From: Caulobacter segnis
GTDB lineage: Bacteria > Pseudomonadota > Alphaproteobacteria > Caulobacterales > Caulobacteraceae
Assembly: GCF_023935105.1 (NCBI RefSeq)
Contig: NZ_CP096040.1
Coordinates: 62,001 to 126,000 of the forward strand
Length of the DNA: 64,000 nucleotides
Reading direction: 5' to 3'
How positions within the stretch are numbered: position 1 is the first letter of the stretch; every line of letters starts with the position of its first letter. The notes under the pieces are model-generated. The model had not been told where the DNA came from, searched no databases, and saw only the letters and a program-made list of their open reading frames with translations. The translations under genes were made by a program, and so were the position numbers. Of the stretch, positions 26,607 through 30,754 are shown piece by piece.

Positions 26607-27104
26607 ATGGAGTCACGTCGAAAGGCGGGGCGCGCGCCTGCGCGTGTAGACGAACCGTCCAGGCGAGCAATGATGGTCGGCGGCGCCGTCGCCTGCGGGG
26701 TTTCGGGCATGGCTCCGCTCCAGGTCCGCGCGGCCCCATCTGTCGCCATCTGCTACCGCTGGCTGGCCATCGACGCTGAACAGCGGCGCCTCCAACTCGA
26801 ATGGGGTACGCTGGAAGGCTGGCTGATGACCAAACGCAATTGGTACAAGCTCACGCCGGAACAGCGGGCCGAAATCCCCGAGGGTGCGAGACTCGGTGAG
26901 ATCGACGCGCGGCTCGATGTGCTGGAGGTCGAGGGACACGCCCTCCTGAAGGCGATGCGACCGAAACCGGCGAGGAGCTTTGAGGCCGTCATCGCCAATC
27001 TCTCGGTGGCGGCGCGGCTGATATTCGTTGAAGATCATCCCGAAGCCCACGGTCTTATCACTCGCGCGGCCCGCGACCTTGCCGCGCTCTCGGGTGGAAA
27101 GTGA
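26607..27104 (+). CDS. Cassette protein 1: signal-anchored small protein, paralogue of cassette protein 4
   Basis: This 165-residue protein is of unrecognised family. Residues 18-43 (SRRAMMVGGAVACGVSGM followed by a hydrophobic run) resemble a twin-arginine or anchor-type signal with an SRR motif. The remainder is helical and charged: YRWLAIDAEQRRLQLEWGTLE, then KLTPEQRAEIP and a LARGE-helix tail (IANLSVAARLI). Cassette protein 4 (27896-28393) has the same order, with EWLALDAEIDRLGNRWSDLE and RMTPEERGELLP, so the two are clear paralogues. AGAGG precedes the ATG. Its last 4 bases overlap the next gene. The function is unknown. Confidence 0.72.
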   Translation: MESRRKAGRAPARVDEPSRRAMMVGGAVACGVSGMAPLQVRAAPSVAICYRWLAIDAEQRRLQLEWGTLEGWLMTKRNWYKLTPEQRAEIPEGARLGEIDARLDVLEVEGHALLKAMRPKPARSFEAVIANLSVAARLIFVEDHPEAHGLITRAARDLAALSGGK

Positions 27105-27562
27105 CCCGCCGCGTCGCCCGGCGACGCGATGGCGCCGACCGCCCATTTGCGGCAACGTTCCGCCGTAACGCCGCTGGCTTCCTCGAAGGCGCCGAGGCGG
27201 CGCTGTCGCGACACCCGGAGGCGACGCGCTACTTCCTAGCCATAGCCATCGAACTGGCGTTGAAGGCTTACCTGCTCGACCGAGGGATCAGCGACGACTG
27301 GAACCGCGTCTATCTCCGGCACGATCTCGTCAAGGCGCTCAGGTTCGCGCGACGTGCTGGCTTCGATAGCGCTCCTGCCGGGGTCGCCGAACTGGCCGCG
27401 CTGCTTGGCCGCTATTACCAAATCCATGGCATCTCGCGGATGACGCCGGACGAGATTGCATCTGTGTGCTGGCGTCAGGCCTGCACGACGGTTCGGAAGC
27501 TCATCGCCGCCGTCGCTGAGGCCGCAGGGCCAGACCCTTCTGGTCAGGAGAACGTCGCGTGA
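27101..27562 (+). CDS. Cassette protein 2: HEPN-like helical protein
   Basis: This 153-residue alpha-helical protein has the HEPN-style layout. A helix with AIAIELALKAYLLDRG resembles the AAE-x-x-LKALL-x-x-G block. LRHDLVKALRFARRAGF resembles the HDL helix, and LLGRYYQIHG contains R104-x4-H109, matching the R-x4-6-H motif of HEPN RNases. In some HEPN families the Tyr after Arg would be Asn, Asp or His, so catalytic activity is not certain. It starts at an ATGA overlap with cassette protein 1 and ends in a 4-bp overlap with cassette protein 3. The HEPN assignment is by eye. Confidence 0.62.
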   Translation: MTRRVARRRDGADRPFAATFRRNAAGFLEGAEAALSRHPEATRYFLAIAIELALKAYLLDRGISDDWNRVYLRHDLVKALRFARRAGFDSAPAGVAELAALLGRYYQIHGISRMTPDEIASVCWRQACTTVRKLIAAVAEAAGPDPSGQENVA

Positions 27563-27903
27563 TGATGCGTCTCCGCATGCCTTGGACGCTCGCGGTGAGT
27601 CAGTGGTGGCGCTGGCGATATCCCTATCTCTGGCGCGGCCGGATCTTCGATCCACACGACGCTCAACAGGTCATGTCCTACGCGGTGCTGCGTCTTCGCC
27701 AGGAGACACGGGATGTCTTCCTGCCCAATCACATTCAGGCGCTCGACTACGCTCTGATCGCTCGCCACCTGGGCATCTCCGCCGCCGAAGTCCAGGCGCG
27801 CCTGGCCGATGCGCTTTGCGAGATTTCCCGGACGATCGCTCTGATCGAGCGCGCCCGTCCTCATTCCAACAATCCAGCCAATGCGGAGCATCCCGATGTC
27901 TGA
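27559..27903 (+). CDS. Cassette protein 3: sigma-70 region-4-like helix-turn-helix protein
   Basis: This 114-residue protein has an aromatic- and Arg-rich N-terminus (QWWRWRYPYLWRGRIFDP). A helical region follows (MSYAVLRLRQETRDVFLPNHI) that reads like the start of sigma region 4 (RLRQETRDVFLLHRI-type). The rest, LDYALIARHLGISAAEVQARL, is a convincing helix-turn-helix. No sigma region 2 is present, so it may be a sigma-like adaptor or a degenerate ECF remnant rather than a working sigma factor. It overlaps its neighbours by 4 and 8 bp. The function is unknown. Confidence 0.65.
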   Translation: MMMRLRMPWTLAVSQWWRWRYPYLWRGRIFDPHDAQQVMSYAVLRLRQETRDVFLPNHIQALDYALIARHLGISAAEVQARLADALCEISRTIALIERARPHSNNPANAEHPDV

Positions 27904-28393
27904 CGACAAGGGGCCATTCGCCGTCTCCCGCCGCGTCGTGATCGGCGCTGCGGGCGCCGCGCCCATCGTTGCCAACACCGACGCCGGCGCGGCGATGCAG
28001 GACCAAGCCATCGCCCGCTGCGGCGAATGGCTGGCGCTTGACGCTGAGATCGACCGCTTGGGTAATCGCTGGTCGGATCTAGAGACCGTTCTCGTGCGGC
28101 AGAAGCGGTGGGAGCGCATGACGCCCGAGGAGCGCGGAGAGCTGTTGCCGTCCGAGGAGATGGACGCCATCGACAAGCAGCTCGAACCGCTGTTCGAGCA
28201 GCGCGAGGCATGGCTGGAGGCTCTTCCCACTGTGCGCGCCAACGACATGCTCGGCGTAGTGGCGAAGCTGGAGGTAGCGTTGCGGGTCATGGTCCACCAG
28301 CAGGGTGACGGCTACGACCTCTTCAAGGCGACGATGGACGAGCTGCGCACCGCGCGCTGTCCCAATTGCTGGGCGCCGGTTTGCAAGCGCTAG
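27896..28393 (+). CDS. Cassette protein 4: signal-anchored small protein, paralogue of cassette protein 1
   Basis: This 165-residue protein begins MSDDKGPFAVSRRVVIGAA, a Tat-like SRR followed by a hydrophobic Ala-rich run. A helical charged body parallels cassette protein 1 over most of its length (WLALDAEIDRL, MTPEERGEL, MLGVVAKLEVALRVM). Its C-terminus adds a CPNCWAPVC segment with three Cys that protein 1 lacks, a possible metal or disulfide site. The start at 27896 lies inside the end of gene 3. The last gene of the unit, it is followed by a cloverleaf-forming DNA element. The family is unrecognised. Confidence 0.72.
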   Translation: MSDDKGPFAVSRRVVIGAAGAAPIVANTDAGAAMQDQAIARCGEWLALDAEIDRLGNRWSDLETVLVRQKRWERMTPEERGELLPSEEMDAIDKQLEPLFEQREAWLEALPTVRANDMLGVVAKLEVALRVMVHQQGDGYDLFKATMDELRTARCPNCWAPVCKR

Positions 28394-28507
28394 CCGCGCC
28401 CCTCCCTACAGCCGTCTTGCCCACCCCAACCTGCGGGAGCCAGGACCGGAACGGTCGGTGCTCGCCCTGGAGCGCTTGGACAGCCTCTGCCGGGCGGGAT
28501 GGTGCGG

Positions 28508-28562
28508 GTCAAGGGCGGCTTCGCCGTCGCTCCGCGAGACGCCCGCAGGGCGTCCCCTTGAC
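28508..28562. repeat. Perfect cloverleaf-forming palindromic element
   Basis: GTCAAGGG (28508-28515) pairs with CCCTTGAC (28555-28562). Inside, with no unpaired bases between helices, come CGGC-TTC-GCCG (28516-28526), TCG-CTCCG-CGA (28527-28537) and GACGCCC-GCA-GGGCGTC (28538-28554). All 55 bases are accounted for in a four-way junction. The element lies in the 290-bp gap between convergent genes (28394-28683), where no other gene is seen. It may serve as a two-way terminator or be a small dispersed DNA repeat. Confidence 0.7.
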
Positions 28563-28683
28563 GCGCGCCAACCCGTCCGGCCCTTGTTCCACCAAGCGAT
28601 CCAGGGCGTCTTGTCTCCGAGCGAAGTTGGTCGGCGGCCGCGCGCTCAGTGGTTGGCCGGACAGGCCCAGCCAAGCGGCCCTG

Positions 28684-28932
28684 TCAGCGTACGCGCTTGA
28701 AGCGGACACGGTCCTTGCCGGCGATGAGAAAGGCGTCAAAGCCAGCGTCGCCCCAGGCCTTGCGCTGCACTTGGCTCGTGTAGGGATCAGTGGTGTTGGC
28801 CCACCACTGCTGACGGGCCGCGCTCTTGGGAAGCATGGCGCCAAGGATGCGCTCGATCTCGGCGAAGGTCAGTTCGAGTTCGCCTTGACGCTGGCGACGC
28901 AGATGACCCGACAGGGGATCGTACTTGGACAT
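28684..28932 (-). CDS. Small conserved-looking hypothetical protein, 82 aa
   Basis: The protein starts MSKYDPLSGHLRRQRQGELE, continues TFAEIERILGAMLPKSAARQ, then WWANTTDPYTSQVQRKAWGDAGF and a basic end (FKRVR). This order of a YDPL head, a FAEIE-ILG helix and a WWAN segment recurs in many unrelated bacterial genomes as a small stand-alone family. I know of no established function. The protein is soluble and complete, lacks cysteines, and faces the cassette operon. A role in nucleic-acid binding is only a guess from its charge. Confidence 0.7.
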   Translation of the reverse strand: MSKYDPLSGHLRRQRQGELELTFAEIERILGAMLPKSAARQQWWANTTDPYTSQVQRKAWGDAGFDAFLIAGKDRVRFKRVR

Positions 28933-29090
28933 CCCCCAGCATCGCCGATTGGTCCGGACACGTCGAATCCACGCGCGACTAGCGCGAGTGGAGAACGACC
29001 TTGAAAAGCCACGCTTGCGAGCGTCTTTGCCGCCGTAAGCACTTTCCGGGATCGGCGGCGTTGCCGGCGATCCGACTCATGGAGACTTTC

Positions 29091-29519
29091 GTGACCGATA
29101 CGCCTGAAGCCCGCACGCCGAACGCCGTCGATCTCCACGTCGGCGGCCGCGTTCGTATGCGTCGCAAGATGCTGAACATGAGCCAGGAACACCTCGCCGA
29201 CGCGCTGGGGCTGACCTTTCAACAGGTGCAGAAGTACGAGCGCGGCGCCAACCGGGTCAGCGCCAGCAAGCTCTATGAGATCGCCAAGACGCTTCAGGTC
29301 CCAGTGTCGTTCTTCTTCGATGGTCTCGCTGATCCGGTGACCAATGAAAACGATGATGTCGGCGCCGCCGACCGGATCGTGACCGAGTTCCTCAACACGC
29401 CCGAGGGCATGGAACTGGCTGAGATGTTTCCCAAGATCGGCCGGGGCCGCGTCCGCCGACAGGTTCTCGACCTCGTCCGCGCCATGGCTGAGGAAAGCTC
29501 GCCCCGCGACGCGTCTTAG
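29091..29519 (+). CDS. XRE-family transcriptional regulator with C-terminal extension
   Basis: From the GTG at 29091 the product is 142 residues. A Cro/CI helix-turn-helix (VRMRRKMLNMSQEHLADALG, FQQVQKYERGANRVSASKLYEIA) is followed by VPVSFFFDGL and a helical tail of about 60 residues. GGAG lies 7 bp before the GTG. An ATG at 29079 and an open frame from 29001 are alternatives. The layout is that of the alphaproteobacterial regulators common on plasmids and in phage-derived regions. It converges with the response regulator with a 4-bp overlap of stops. The target is unknown. Confidence 0.85.
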   Translation: MTDTPEARTPNAVDLHVGGRVRMRRKMLNMSQEHLADALGLTFQQVQKYERGANRVSASKLYEIAKTLQVPVSFFFDGLADPVTNENDDVGAADRIVTEFLNTPEGMELAEMFPKIGRGRVRRQVLDLVRAMAEESSPRDAS

Positions 29520-29908
29520 GCTCCAGCGGCCAGCATTTCGCCAATCAGGTCGAGCAGCTCGGACGGCGTATAGGGCTTCTGGATGAACCGGGCTCCAGCC
29601 GGCAAGTCGCTGGCCTGGAGCGCCGCCGCGCCACTGGTGACCAGGATTTTCAACGCTGGCACGCGCATGGCGACCAGGTGCGCCAGGCCCGCGCCGTTGA
29701 TCTCGCCTGGCATGTCGACGTCGGTGAACATCAGGGCGATGTCGGGACGGGCATCGATGAGCGCCAGCGCCTCTTCAGCGTTCACGGCCTCCAGGCAGTG
29801 GAAACCGCCATCAGTAAGGATGTCGCAGGCCAGCATCCGAACCAGTACTTCGTCATCGACGACCAGCAGGATGGGGGCCGCCGGCAGGCTTTCACTATCG
29901 ATTGTCAT
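29516..29908 (-). CDS. Single-domain response regulator (REC only)
   Basis: This 130-residue CheY-like receiver has the acidic pair D18-D19 (VVDDEVLV), phosphoacceptor D63 (FTDVDMPG), a T/S pair at 91-92 (VTSGAA) and K111 (IQKPYT). No output domain is present. The sequence type is the one often paired with HWE/HisKA_2 kinases, and such a kinase is encoded 5.3 kb away inside the same island (35186-36280). The reading frame is open without a stop from the TraD-like region upstream, so a fused product is possible. The ATG at 29908 gives a normal independent receiver. Confidence 0.85.
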   Translation of the reverse strand: MTIDSESLPAAPILLVVDDEVLVRMLACDILTDGGFHCLEAVNAEEALALIDARPDIALMFTDVDMPGEINGAGLAHLVAMRVPALKILVTSGAAALQASDLPAGARFIQKPYTPSELLDLIGEMLAAGA

Positions 29909-30448
29909 GGTCGCGCCCCAACGACGCAACGCCGGGAAATGCCAAGCGCGAGAGTCGCATACCCGACTAACCCGAGACGGGGATTTCTGTTGCACGATTT
30001 CGGCGATTGCCTGGGGTTGTCTCTGAGAAGGCACAACCCGCGCCGGATCAGGGGCTCGATCAGCCGCACCGGACTCGAACGCCCTCCTTCCACCGCGTCG
30101 CCATAACGCCAGGGTGTGCTCGGCGTCGTCGGCTTTGAGCATGGTCGCCAAGAACGTGAACGCGCCGTAGAGGACGGCGCGGTCATCGCGGGTCAGCTCG
30201 ACGAGGCCGGCCTTTTGCACCAGACCGCCCAGCTCGATCAGGTGGCGGGTGCGCTCGCGCCGTTTCACCACCCACGCCCGCGTATCGGTTCTGGCTCGCC
30301 GCGCTTCCAGCCGATGGCGCGCGGCCTTGGCCCGGCGCTCTGCGTCATTGGTCGCCGCCAGCGCTAGGCGCAGGGGCGCTCGACCCGCCGCGAAAGAACC
30401 CCGCGCCGCGCTTCCTCCAGCCCTCCTTGCGCGCGGCGTTCCCGGCAT
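29909..30448 (-). CDS. traD: TraD-like conjugal transfer protein (open frame runs into the response regulator)
   Basis: The segment reading RRERTRHLIELGGLVQKAGL followed by RDDRAVLYGAFTFLATML and ALWRRGGRRAF matches the small TraD of Ti-type transfer regions, which sits next to TraC and the relaxase. The start is unclear: the ATG at 30448 overlaps traC by about 100 bp, and internal GTG codons near 30270 are alternatives. Unusually, no stop occurs before the response regulator ATG at 29908. The last 50 or so residues (PDPARVVPSQRQPQAIAEIV) are not recognised. This is either a readthrough linkage or a TraD that lost its stop. Confidence 0.6.
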
Positions 30449-30611: not shown

Positions 30612-30726
30612 TCCAAGTCTCCAGGTTTCGATGATGCGCCAATCGTAAATCAGGGCGTCCGGGAATGCTGTAAGGTCGCCGGAACACACTGGGATGGGCC
30701 GGTCCCTCCCGAGATTCTTTCTTGGG

Positions 30727-30754
30727 AGGGCGCGCTTATACGTCGTGCCGACGT
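30727..30754 (+). other. oriT: Putative Q-type (Ti/RSF1010-like) origin of transfer, oriT
   Basis: AGGGCGCGCTTATACGTCG at 30727-30745 matches the RSF1010/Ti nick-region core (AGGGCGCACTTA on this strand) with one difference and then the TTATACGTCG continuation seen in Ti-type oriT regions. ACGTCG-TGC-CGACGT at 30740-30754 forms an adjacent 6-bp hairpin. The site sits in the 172-bp gap between divergent traC and traA, exactly where Ti plasmids carry oriT. The strand of nicking is not determined here. Confidence 0.78.

Follow-up and report, generated by a model that had tools for sequence, protein, structure and literature searches.

A long DNA palindrome with a cloverleaf tip in islands of Caulobacter, possibly kept as a hairpin-forming element

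The window, by which we mean the whole 64,000-nucleotide stretch of the Caulobacter segnis chromosome analysed here (C1:62001-126000), includes a mobile island in which two genes converge across a palindromic element of 172 bp (28437-28608, + strand). The upstream neighbour of the element in this island type is c0 (27881-28393, + strand, 170 aa), and on the other side lies a gene for a DUF7662 protein (28684-28932, - strand). The c0 product has no Pfam match above cut-off and no NCBIfam match at E<=0.01, neither PADLOC nor NCBIfam gives a name to c0 or to the DUF7662 gene, and a search of IMG/VR gave no relatives of c0. Four tightly packed genes at 26607-28393 encode two c0-like proteins (one family of ~170 aa without a Pfam name), a HEPN-like protein (below the Pfam cut-off) and a small sigma-region-4 protein (just below the cut-off), and this set is kept together in many islands of the same group (group A, see below). 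Further along, a single open frame at 29516-30448 (- strand) gives matches to TraD as well as to a response-regulator receiver domain, and represents either a fused gene or two genes read through as one. A CTCCC/GGGAG inverted repeat followed by GGCGCGCTTATACGTCG stands at about 30706-30754, in the interval separating traD from traA; we take it to be the likely MOBQ-type oriT of the island, the motif being known from rhizobial plasmids.

The original prediction described the 55 bases at 28508-28562 as a gap-free cloverleaf, and this description is borne out. Written as GTCAAGGG / CGGC-TTC-GCCG / TCGC-TCC-GCGA / GACGCCC-GCA-GGGCGTC / CCCTTGAC, the apex accounts for 55 of 55 bases, and the minimum-energy fold of the 55-mer is exactly this cloverleaf both as DNA (-21.4 kcal/mol) and as RNA (-31.8 kcal/mol), with 0 of 200 shuffles folding as well in the DNA case and 1 of 200 in the RNA case. 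Its stems measure 8, 4, 4 and 7 bp; the outer stem and two of the three hairpins (4 and 7 bp) had been given correctly, and the middle hairpin has 4 bp, not the 3 bp predicted. That such perfection is unlikely by chance also holds up: a scan of the window for three, and only three, perfect hairpins standing side by side (stems 3-8, loops 3-4) within an 8-bp closing stem gave one instance, against none in 100 dinucleotide shuffles of the window. The limits drawn around the cloverleaf were too narrow, because it is the tip of the 172-bp palindrome, in which inverted arms (28489-28515/28555-28581 and 28463-28479/28592-28608) and a 5' hairpin extend the element to 28437-28608.

These outer limits were set by aligning 25 copies of what we call the type-1 element, just outside which the flanks of different subfamilies diverge. 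Read on the + strand, the element opens with a 5' hairpin, after which come an outer arm, an internal loop and an inner arm that leads up to the cloverleaf apex. The 5' hairpin (GAGC..GACCG/CGGTC..GCTC, 28437-28463) comprises helices 1-2, and one of its pairs shows a two-sided change in 7 of the 25 copies. It is followed by the 5' side of the outer arm (28464-28479; helix 3, with 95.5% of cells paired), the 5' side of the internal loop (28480-28488), whose AGCCTCT core is nearly invariant by column counts, and the 5' side of the inner arm (28489-28507), which ends in a G that never varies and that forms half of a G:G mismatch present in 25 of 25 copies. The apex begins with the 5' side of its closing stem, GTCAAGGG (28508-28515), which is invariant in 25 of 25 copies that were found partly through that very sequence, and continues with hairpin 1 (28516-28526) and hairpin 2 (28527-28537), each with a 4-bp stem, hairpin 3 (28538-28554, 7-bp stem here) and the 3' side of the closing stem, CCCTTGAC (28555-28562). 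Hairpin 3, which is helix 7, varies among type-1 copies both in sequence and in length (from about 7 to 12 bp), with two-sided changes in all four of its counted pairs and 99% of counted cells paired. The way back runs through the 3' side of the inner arm (28563-28581), whose first base is the second G of the mismatch, the 3' side of the internal loop (28582-28591; CC.T.GTTCCA, nearly invariant by column counts) and the 3' side of the outer arm (28592-28608). The internal loop is asymmetric, and the 216-bp region around the element has a DNA fold z-score of -7.2. At gathering score, the sole Rfam match in the window is a tRNA and none falls on the element, for which the best sub-threshold match is MIR1858 (27.5 bits against a threshold of 137).

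The fold is conserved through compensatory change. In the alignment of 25 distinct copies (truncated copies L048 and L127 were excluded, and identical copies, 10 of 39 in the first alignment and 2 more later, were counted once), 97.2% of the 1550 cells in 62 pairs are paired, and pairing falls to 32-42% when the partner is slid by 1-3 columns. Two-sided changes occur in 12 pairs (8.4 in shuffles) and in 63 cells (16.4 in shuffles), and the covariation score of the alignment was matched by none of 500 shuffles; further pair types make a weaker case, numbering 25 where shuffles give 22.6 and where 72 of 500 shuffles reach 25. The element also recurs. This genome has three full copies (C1:90508, 509155 and 1473088) and a decayed one at C1:5038065 outside a recognisable island of this sort. 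Within the genus, 39 of 75 genomes have a BLAST match at E<=1e-3, many of the weak matches spanning the apex region only, and the pattern GTCAAGGG N20-50 CCCTTGAC is present in 21 of the 75, while its reversed control is present in 6; across the class, 12 of 289 genomes carry the pattern and 2 carry the control, and most of the class-wide instances look unlike this cloverleaf. The original prediction was to stand or fall on the existence of a second copy and of covariation, and both were found. Among plasmids, the collection searched gave only nine Streptomyces matches, all in annotated HTH regulator genes, which we take as chance, and phage records gave no match to the element. A search of IMG/VR with the exact 23-base pattern returned one contig, which by its translations carries the same island as locus L234, and there is therefore no sign of phage origin. 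Among the papers listed from the open literature searched, none describes this palindrome family.

Comparison of the surroundings, which rests on heuristic gene calls, places the element in three kinds of island. Group A (15 loci, L214-L228), to which the window belongs, has a TraA relaxase in 15 of 15, a TraD-like protein in 15, a sigma-like protein in 14, a HEPN-like protein in 13 and an XRE protein in 9, with c0 upstream of the element; the DUF7662 gene (cluster c13) was called in 4 of the 15. The tyrosine integrase cluster of the window type comprises five loci, the assignment being a candidate one in the four group-A loci other than the window's. In group B (9 loci, L229-L237), a recombinase, a c0-like gene, a divergent XRE gene and the element are followed by variable DNA; a serine recombinase or tyrosine integrase, named by eye, is present in 9 of 9, the XRE gene was called in 6, and the variable DNA includes, by eye, Vsr/methylase and HipA-like genes along with a Panacea-like one. 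Group C combines the element with an XRE gene, c0 and a serine recombinase-like gene, and in 8 of 10 loci the distance from the element to the c0 start is 482-493 bp. Group C (L387-L399) also shows another long hairpin (GCGGTTTAAGCCG...CGGCTTAACCGC), which lies between the XRE gene and the element, on the downstream side of XRE.

Every one of the 21 c0 loci at or above 57% identity to the window's c0 carries the element no more than 1 kb away, three of them (G024, G026 (1532161) and G070 (C664)) in a diverged and partial form. Of 20 c0 loci at greater distance, 12 show a match to the model at E<=0.02 (including L392, where it is 1.4 kb away with other flanks, and L397, where it is partial) and 8 have none at E<=0.6, and among the six most distant loci of a further set (L379-L384) only L380 matches at E<=0.02. 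In that further set of thirty, L371-L374 and L377 were omitted and larger regions around them were scanned instead, and the c0 rows scanned singly exclude the second c0 gene of group-A islands and a few others. Since several distant c0 loci lack model matches, the element is not obligatory beside c0. In L226, L229 and L232, the neighbour gene and the element are set apart by extra DNA with a gene call; in L218 and L221 the extra DNA follows directly after the element, with a recombinase gene in the former and no called gene in the latter. From such arrangements, the element tends to mark the edge between a recombinase/regulator module and variable DNA. Those full type-1 copies whose surroundings were read occupy one fixed place in their islands, and a diverged element holds the same place in L240/L241, so the element is apparently inherited with the island. 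The idea that it is itself a mobile element fares unevenly: the location in a mobile island agrees with it, and the constant place of type-1 copies looks instead like inheritance with the island.

Type-1 elements are part of a wider family. Palindromes of a second kind, type 3, are dispersed in 43 of the 75 genus genomes, with up to 14 matches per genome. By eye, they share with type 1 the GCCGGGC...GTCCGGC arm and the apex plan, and differ in the internal loop; their stems covary freely. Their gene context shows no clear bias among 29 classified loci, with 10 at contig edges and with gene calls that were poor throughout. A covariance model, R1, built from 21 type-1 arms, finds members at E<=0.01 in at least 51 of 299 genomes of the order and at least 13 of 54 genera, with at least 9 matches in G411, at least 13 in G466 and at least 10 in G420, all of these counts being lower bounds as 14 candidates were scored per genome. 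At E<=0.001, in a class sample of 387 genomes that includes few from the order, R1 matches two genomes, one of which is this one. The 20-bp inner arms of 20 copies from G411 and G466 change in sequence yet stay almost perfectly paired: leaving aside the junction base (G:G in 16 of 20), only 6 of 380 cells are imperfect (2 G-U, 2 A-C and 2 G-G). These cells are not independent, the copies being related and coming from two genomes. Outside the order, a cloverleaf tip of the same kind is also seen in the actinobacterium Pseudonocardia bannensis (L058 1752-1838; 52 bits with the model), where it matches at 32 of 33 bases, an identity that partly reflects selection, the locus having been fetched by an exact 19-base match; by eye, an integrase remnant and a tRNA-like sequence lie near it. 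Another kind of cloverleaf (GTCAAGGGCGGCC...) occurs at L183, L192, L193, L200, L203 and L250-L253. In the four fetched examples (L250-L253), it is 3' of a traF-like gene in 4 of 4 and 0.9-1.5 kb from a VirD2-like relaxase gene, both genes being named by eye.

The apex is found in opposite orientations relative to its surroundings. In the G411/G466 copies, closely similar apexes stand within an outer context of one orientation in 13 copies and of the opposite orientation in 6, with one of the 20 (L331) left unassigned. In group B, the element shares its strand with the adjacent XRE gene in all 6 loci with that gene called; in group C, the apex model scores better on the strand opposite the XRE gene in 7 of 7 such loci, by margins of 2.7 to about 10 bits, and L397 matches on the opposite strand only. 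The arm motif GCCGGGC...GTCCGGC of group C nevertheless keeps its orientation relative to the XRE gene, by eye, and by eye a type-3 copy, L263, gives the impression of a flip as well. For the type-1 alignment, BLAST collected copies in a single orientation only, and an apex flip is therefore invisible in it. Judged from these sequences, apex inversion would be expected from DNA recombination or hairpin processing, and not from RNA function alone.

An RNA role is the main alternative, and one that we regard as possible but rather unlikely: the element would be a strong 3'-end hairpin or a two-way insulator that stops or protects transcripts arriving from the c0 or XRE gene and from the cargo side. 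Its place agrees with this, since in groups A and B the type-1 element is 3' of c0 or the XRE gene on the same strand, a few bases from the XRE stop codon in L230, L231, L235 and L237, and in this window it lies between convergent genes. The RNAalifold energy is also better for the + strand (-99.2) than for the - strand (-83.2); this and the 3' position on the gene's strand also weigh against a DNA-level reading. The conserved single-stranded loops could bind protein or RNA. The mispairs outside two columns speak against RNA. A hairpin selected as RNA should favour G-U pairs, in clear excess over many columns. Type-1 copies have 42 G-U cells, of which 36 lie in two columns (60/152 and 69/143), and 9 A-C cells; outside these two columns there are 6 G-U against 9 A-C cells, and counted by columns G-U and A-C amount to 8 and 7. 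The type-3 stems have 29 G-U against 21 A-C, and column 60/152 supplies 19 of the 29. At this column, G-U is fixed in 24 of 25 type-1 copies and G-T or T-G is found in 19 of 40 type-3 copies, which could mean RNA. Published REPs are likewise mostly downstream of genes (PMC3733652). On the other hand, a test for a GC-rich hairpin with a T-run found no terminator-like site on either strand at 27800-29100, which removes an intrinsic terminator from consideration; a terminator would have no need of such long arms, of conserved loops or of a cloverleaf, and in group C the apex stands inverted with respect to the gene. Of the earlier interpretation, recurrence in this and related genomes, stem covariation, the location in a mobile island and a greater likeness to dispersed palindromes than to a simple terminator are upheld, the last by the missing terminator-like site; the suggestion of a recognition site for a structure-specific enzyme is conjectural.

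Another alternative, which we consider unlikely, is movement by a transposase acting in trans: the element would be of REP or MITE type, mobile but non-autonomous, and the island copies would be hitchhikers. The many dispersed copies of related palindromes in the genus and the order would suit such an element, as would the polymorphic occupancy of the mutM-echA gap, where among 20 regions fetched from the 75 genomes searched a family palindrome is clear in 4 and weak in 1 more. The flanks adjoin in G073, and the gap is hypervariable across the genus (L411-L430), with no clean empty-site boundary or target duplication readable by eye or by BLAST. Nor was a target-site duplication seen by eye in 20 multi-copy examples. 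Terminal inverted repeats, a target-site duplication and a parent transposon are the hallmarks of MITEs. MITEs and RIME/ERIC-type repeats (PMC2229807, PMC10969869) resemble the family in being 100-200 bp long, highly paired and dispersed; the family would differ from MITEs if the lack of a visible target duplication, and of a parent transposon among the sequences looked at, holds generally. The constant island position of type-1 copies, including the diverged L240/L241 copy, also argues against movement in trans. The extragenic palindromes known as GTAG REPs, REPINs and RAYT systems (PMC3733652) are thought to be moved as DNA hairpins, and GTAG REPs are short hairpins with an unpaired GTAG-type tag on one end and a cognate Y1 tyrosine transposase. 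The element shares with them its extragenic palindromic nature; it has no GTAG on either strand, and this genome has no match to the Y1 transposase (PF01797; IS200/REP-type), which 22 of the 75 genus genomes have, so that by these features it is not one of them.

In kind, the family resembles two repeat classes already described in alphaproteobacteria, and it falls outside the definition of each. The CIR elements of Caulobacter were reportedly the subject of work by Chen and Shapiro in 2003. The CcrM-associated intergenic repeats CIR1-CIR4 are intergenic palindromes of about 110 bp in Caulobacter and other alphaproteobacteria, with a conserved fold, and are defined by a GANTC methylation site at a loop and two arms joined by a linker (PMC2229807, PMC10969869). 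Our element is alike in being an intergenic palindrome of these bacteria with a conserved fold. It differs in that GANTC occurs in 1 of 25 type-1 and 0 of 40 type-3 copies, and not in this one, and in its plan, a short 5' hairpin beside a single long arm whose tip bears three hairpins; the missing GANTC loop site and two-arm-plus-linker plan rule out identity. CGTC-tagged REPs (Di Nocera 2013, PMC3733652) are abundant in alphaproteobacteria including C. crescentus, have no known dedicated transposase, and consist of one hairpin each, with a stem of 8-9 bp, a loop of 4-5 bases and a terminal tag left unpaired. The abundance and the absence of a known dedicated transposase are common to both. 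The element is, in contrast, a multi-branch structure of 172 bp with CGTC internal only and none at an end, and without a terminal unpaired CGTC and with a different architecture it is not a CGTC REP.

Two further alternatives assign the element to its neighbours or to the island. It could be a binding site or structured operator for the adjacent XRE regulator or c0, a very improbable reading in our judgement: co-occurrence with c0 and XRE genes and the nearly invariant internal loops are in keeping with it, while the adjacent regulators differ between groups and the dispersed type-3 relatives that were fetched adjoin other genes, by eye. A function as the island's transfer origin, its attachment site or a packaging site, which the position in islands with a relaxase or recombinase might suggest, is barely credible, since the MOBQ-like oriT candidate lies elsewhere, beside traA, the element is whole and internal and not split as an att site would be, and phage records hold no match to suggest packaging. 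Integron attC sites carry the core sequences GTTRRRY and RYYYAAC at their ends; neither is present on either strand of the element, and an attC identity is rejected.

We favour, tentatively and as something short of an even prospect, the reading that this is a family of long interrupted DNA palindromes of the Caulobacterales, kept for a hairpin or cruciform that either strand can form, processed as such, and used or tolerated at island boundaries. A DNA-level reading is preferred because changes are compensated, mispairs are balanced outside two columns, there is no T-run, and the apex is inverted in several lineages. In single-stranded or supercoiled DNA, as in replication, excision or conjugative transfer, the palindrome would extrude as an arm with a cloverleaf tip, and enzymes of the cell or the island that act on such structures could process the extruded arm. 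One arm may then be copied from the other, which would keep the arms complementary, and the tip may sometimes be re-joined inverted. With less certainty, the element might act as a structural boundary at which single genes or cargo are gained or swapped with the module undamaged, and it may perhaps also slow transcription entering from either side. A useful analogy, with no implication of homology, is the inverted terminal repeat of AAV, a branched-tip palindrome whose inner part occurs in flip and flop orientations. The element likewise has a branched tip and an inner part in two orientations, but it is chromosomal and internal, without a known replication protein or nicking site.

A bolder form of this DNA-level reading is that a flip/flop palindrome with a branched tip, kept by hairpin-acting enzymes, is used by unrelated islands as a common exchange boundary between recombinase module and cargo. 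We think this quite doubtful; if true, it would be a case of bacterial, non-integron gene swapping at a folded DNA site. The maintenance and role of the common small palindromic repeats are mostly open questions, for which this family may provide a concrete and testable system: it combines a large branched architecture with near-complete pairing, has its tip in both orientations, and holds a fixed place across integrase types. With such a system, one can ask whether cells process DNA hairpins and whether cargo, defence genes for example, is acquired under the guidance of such sites.
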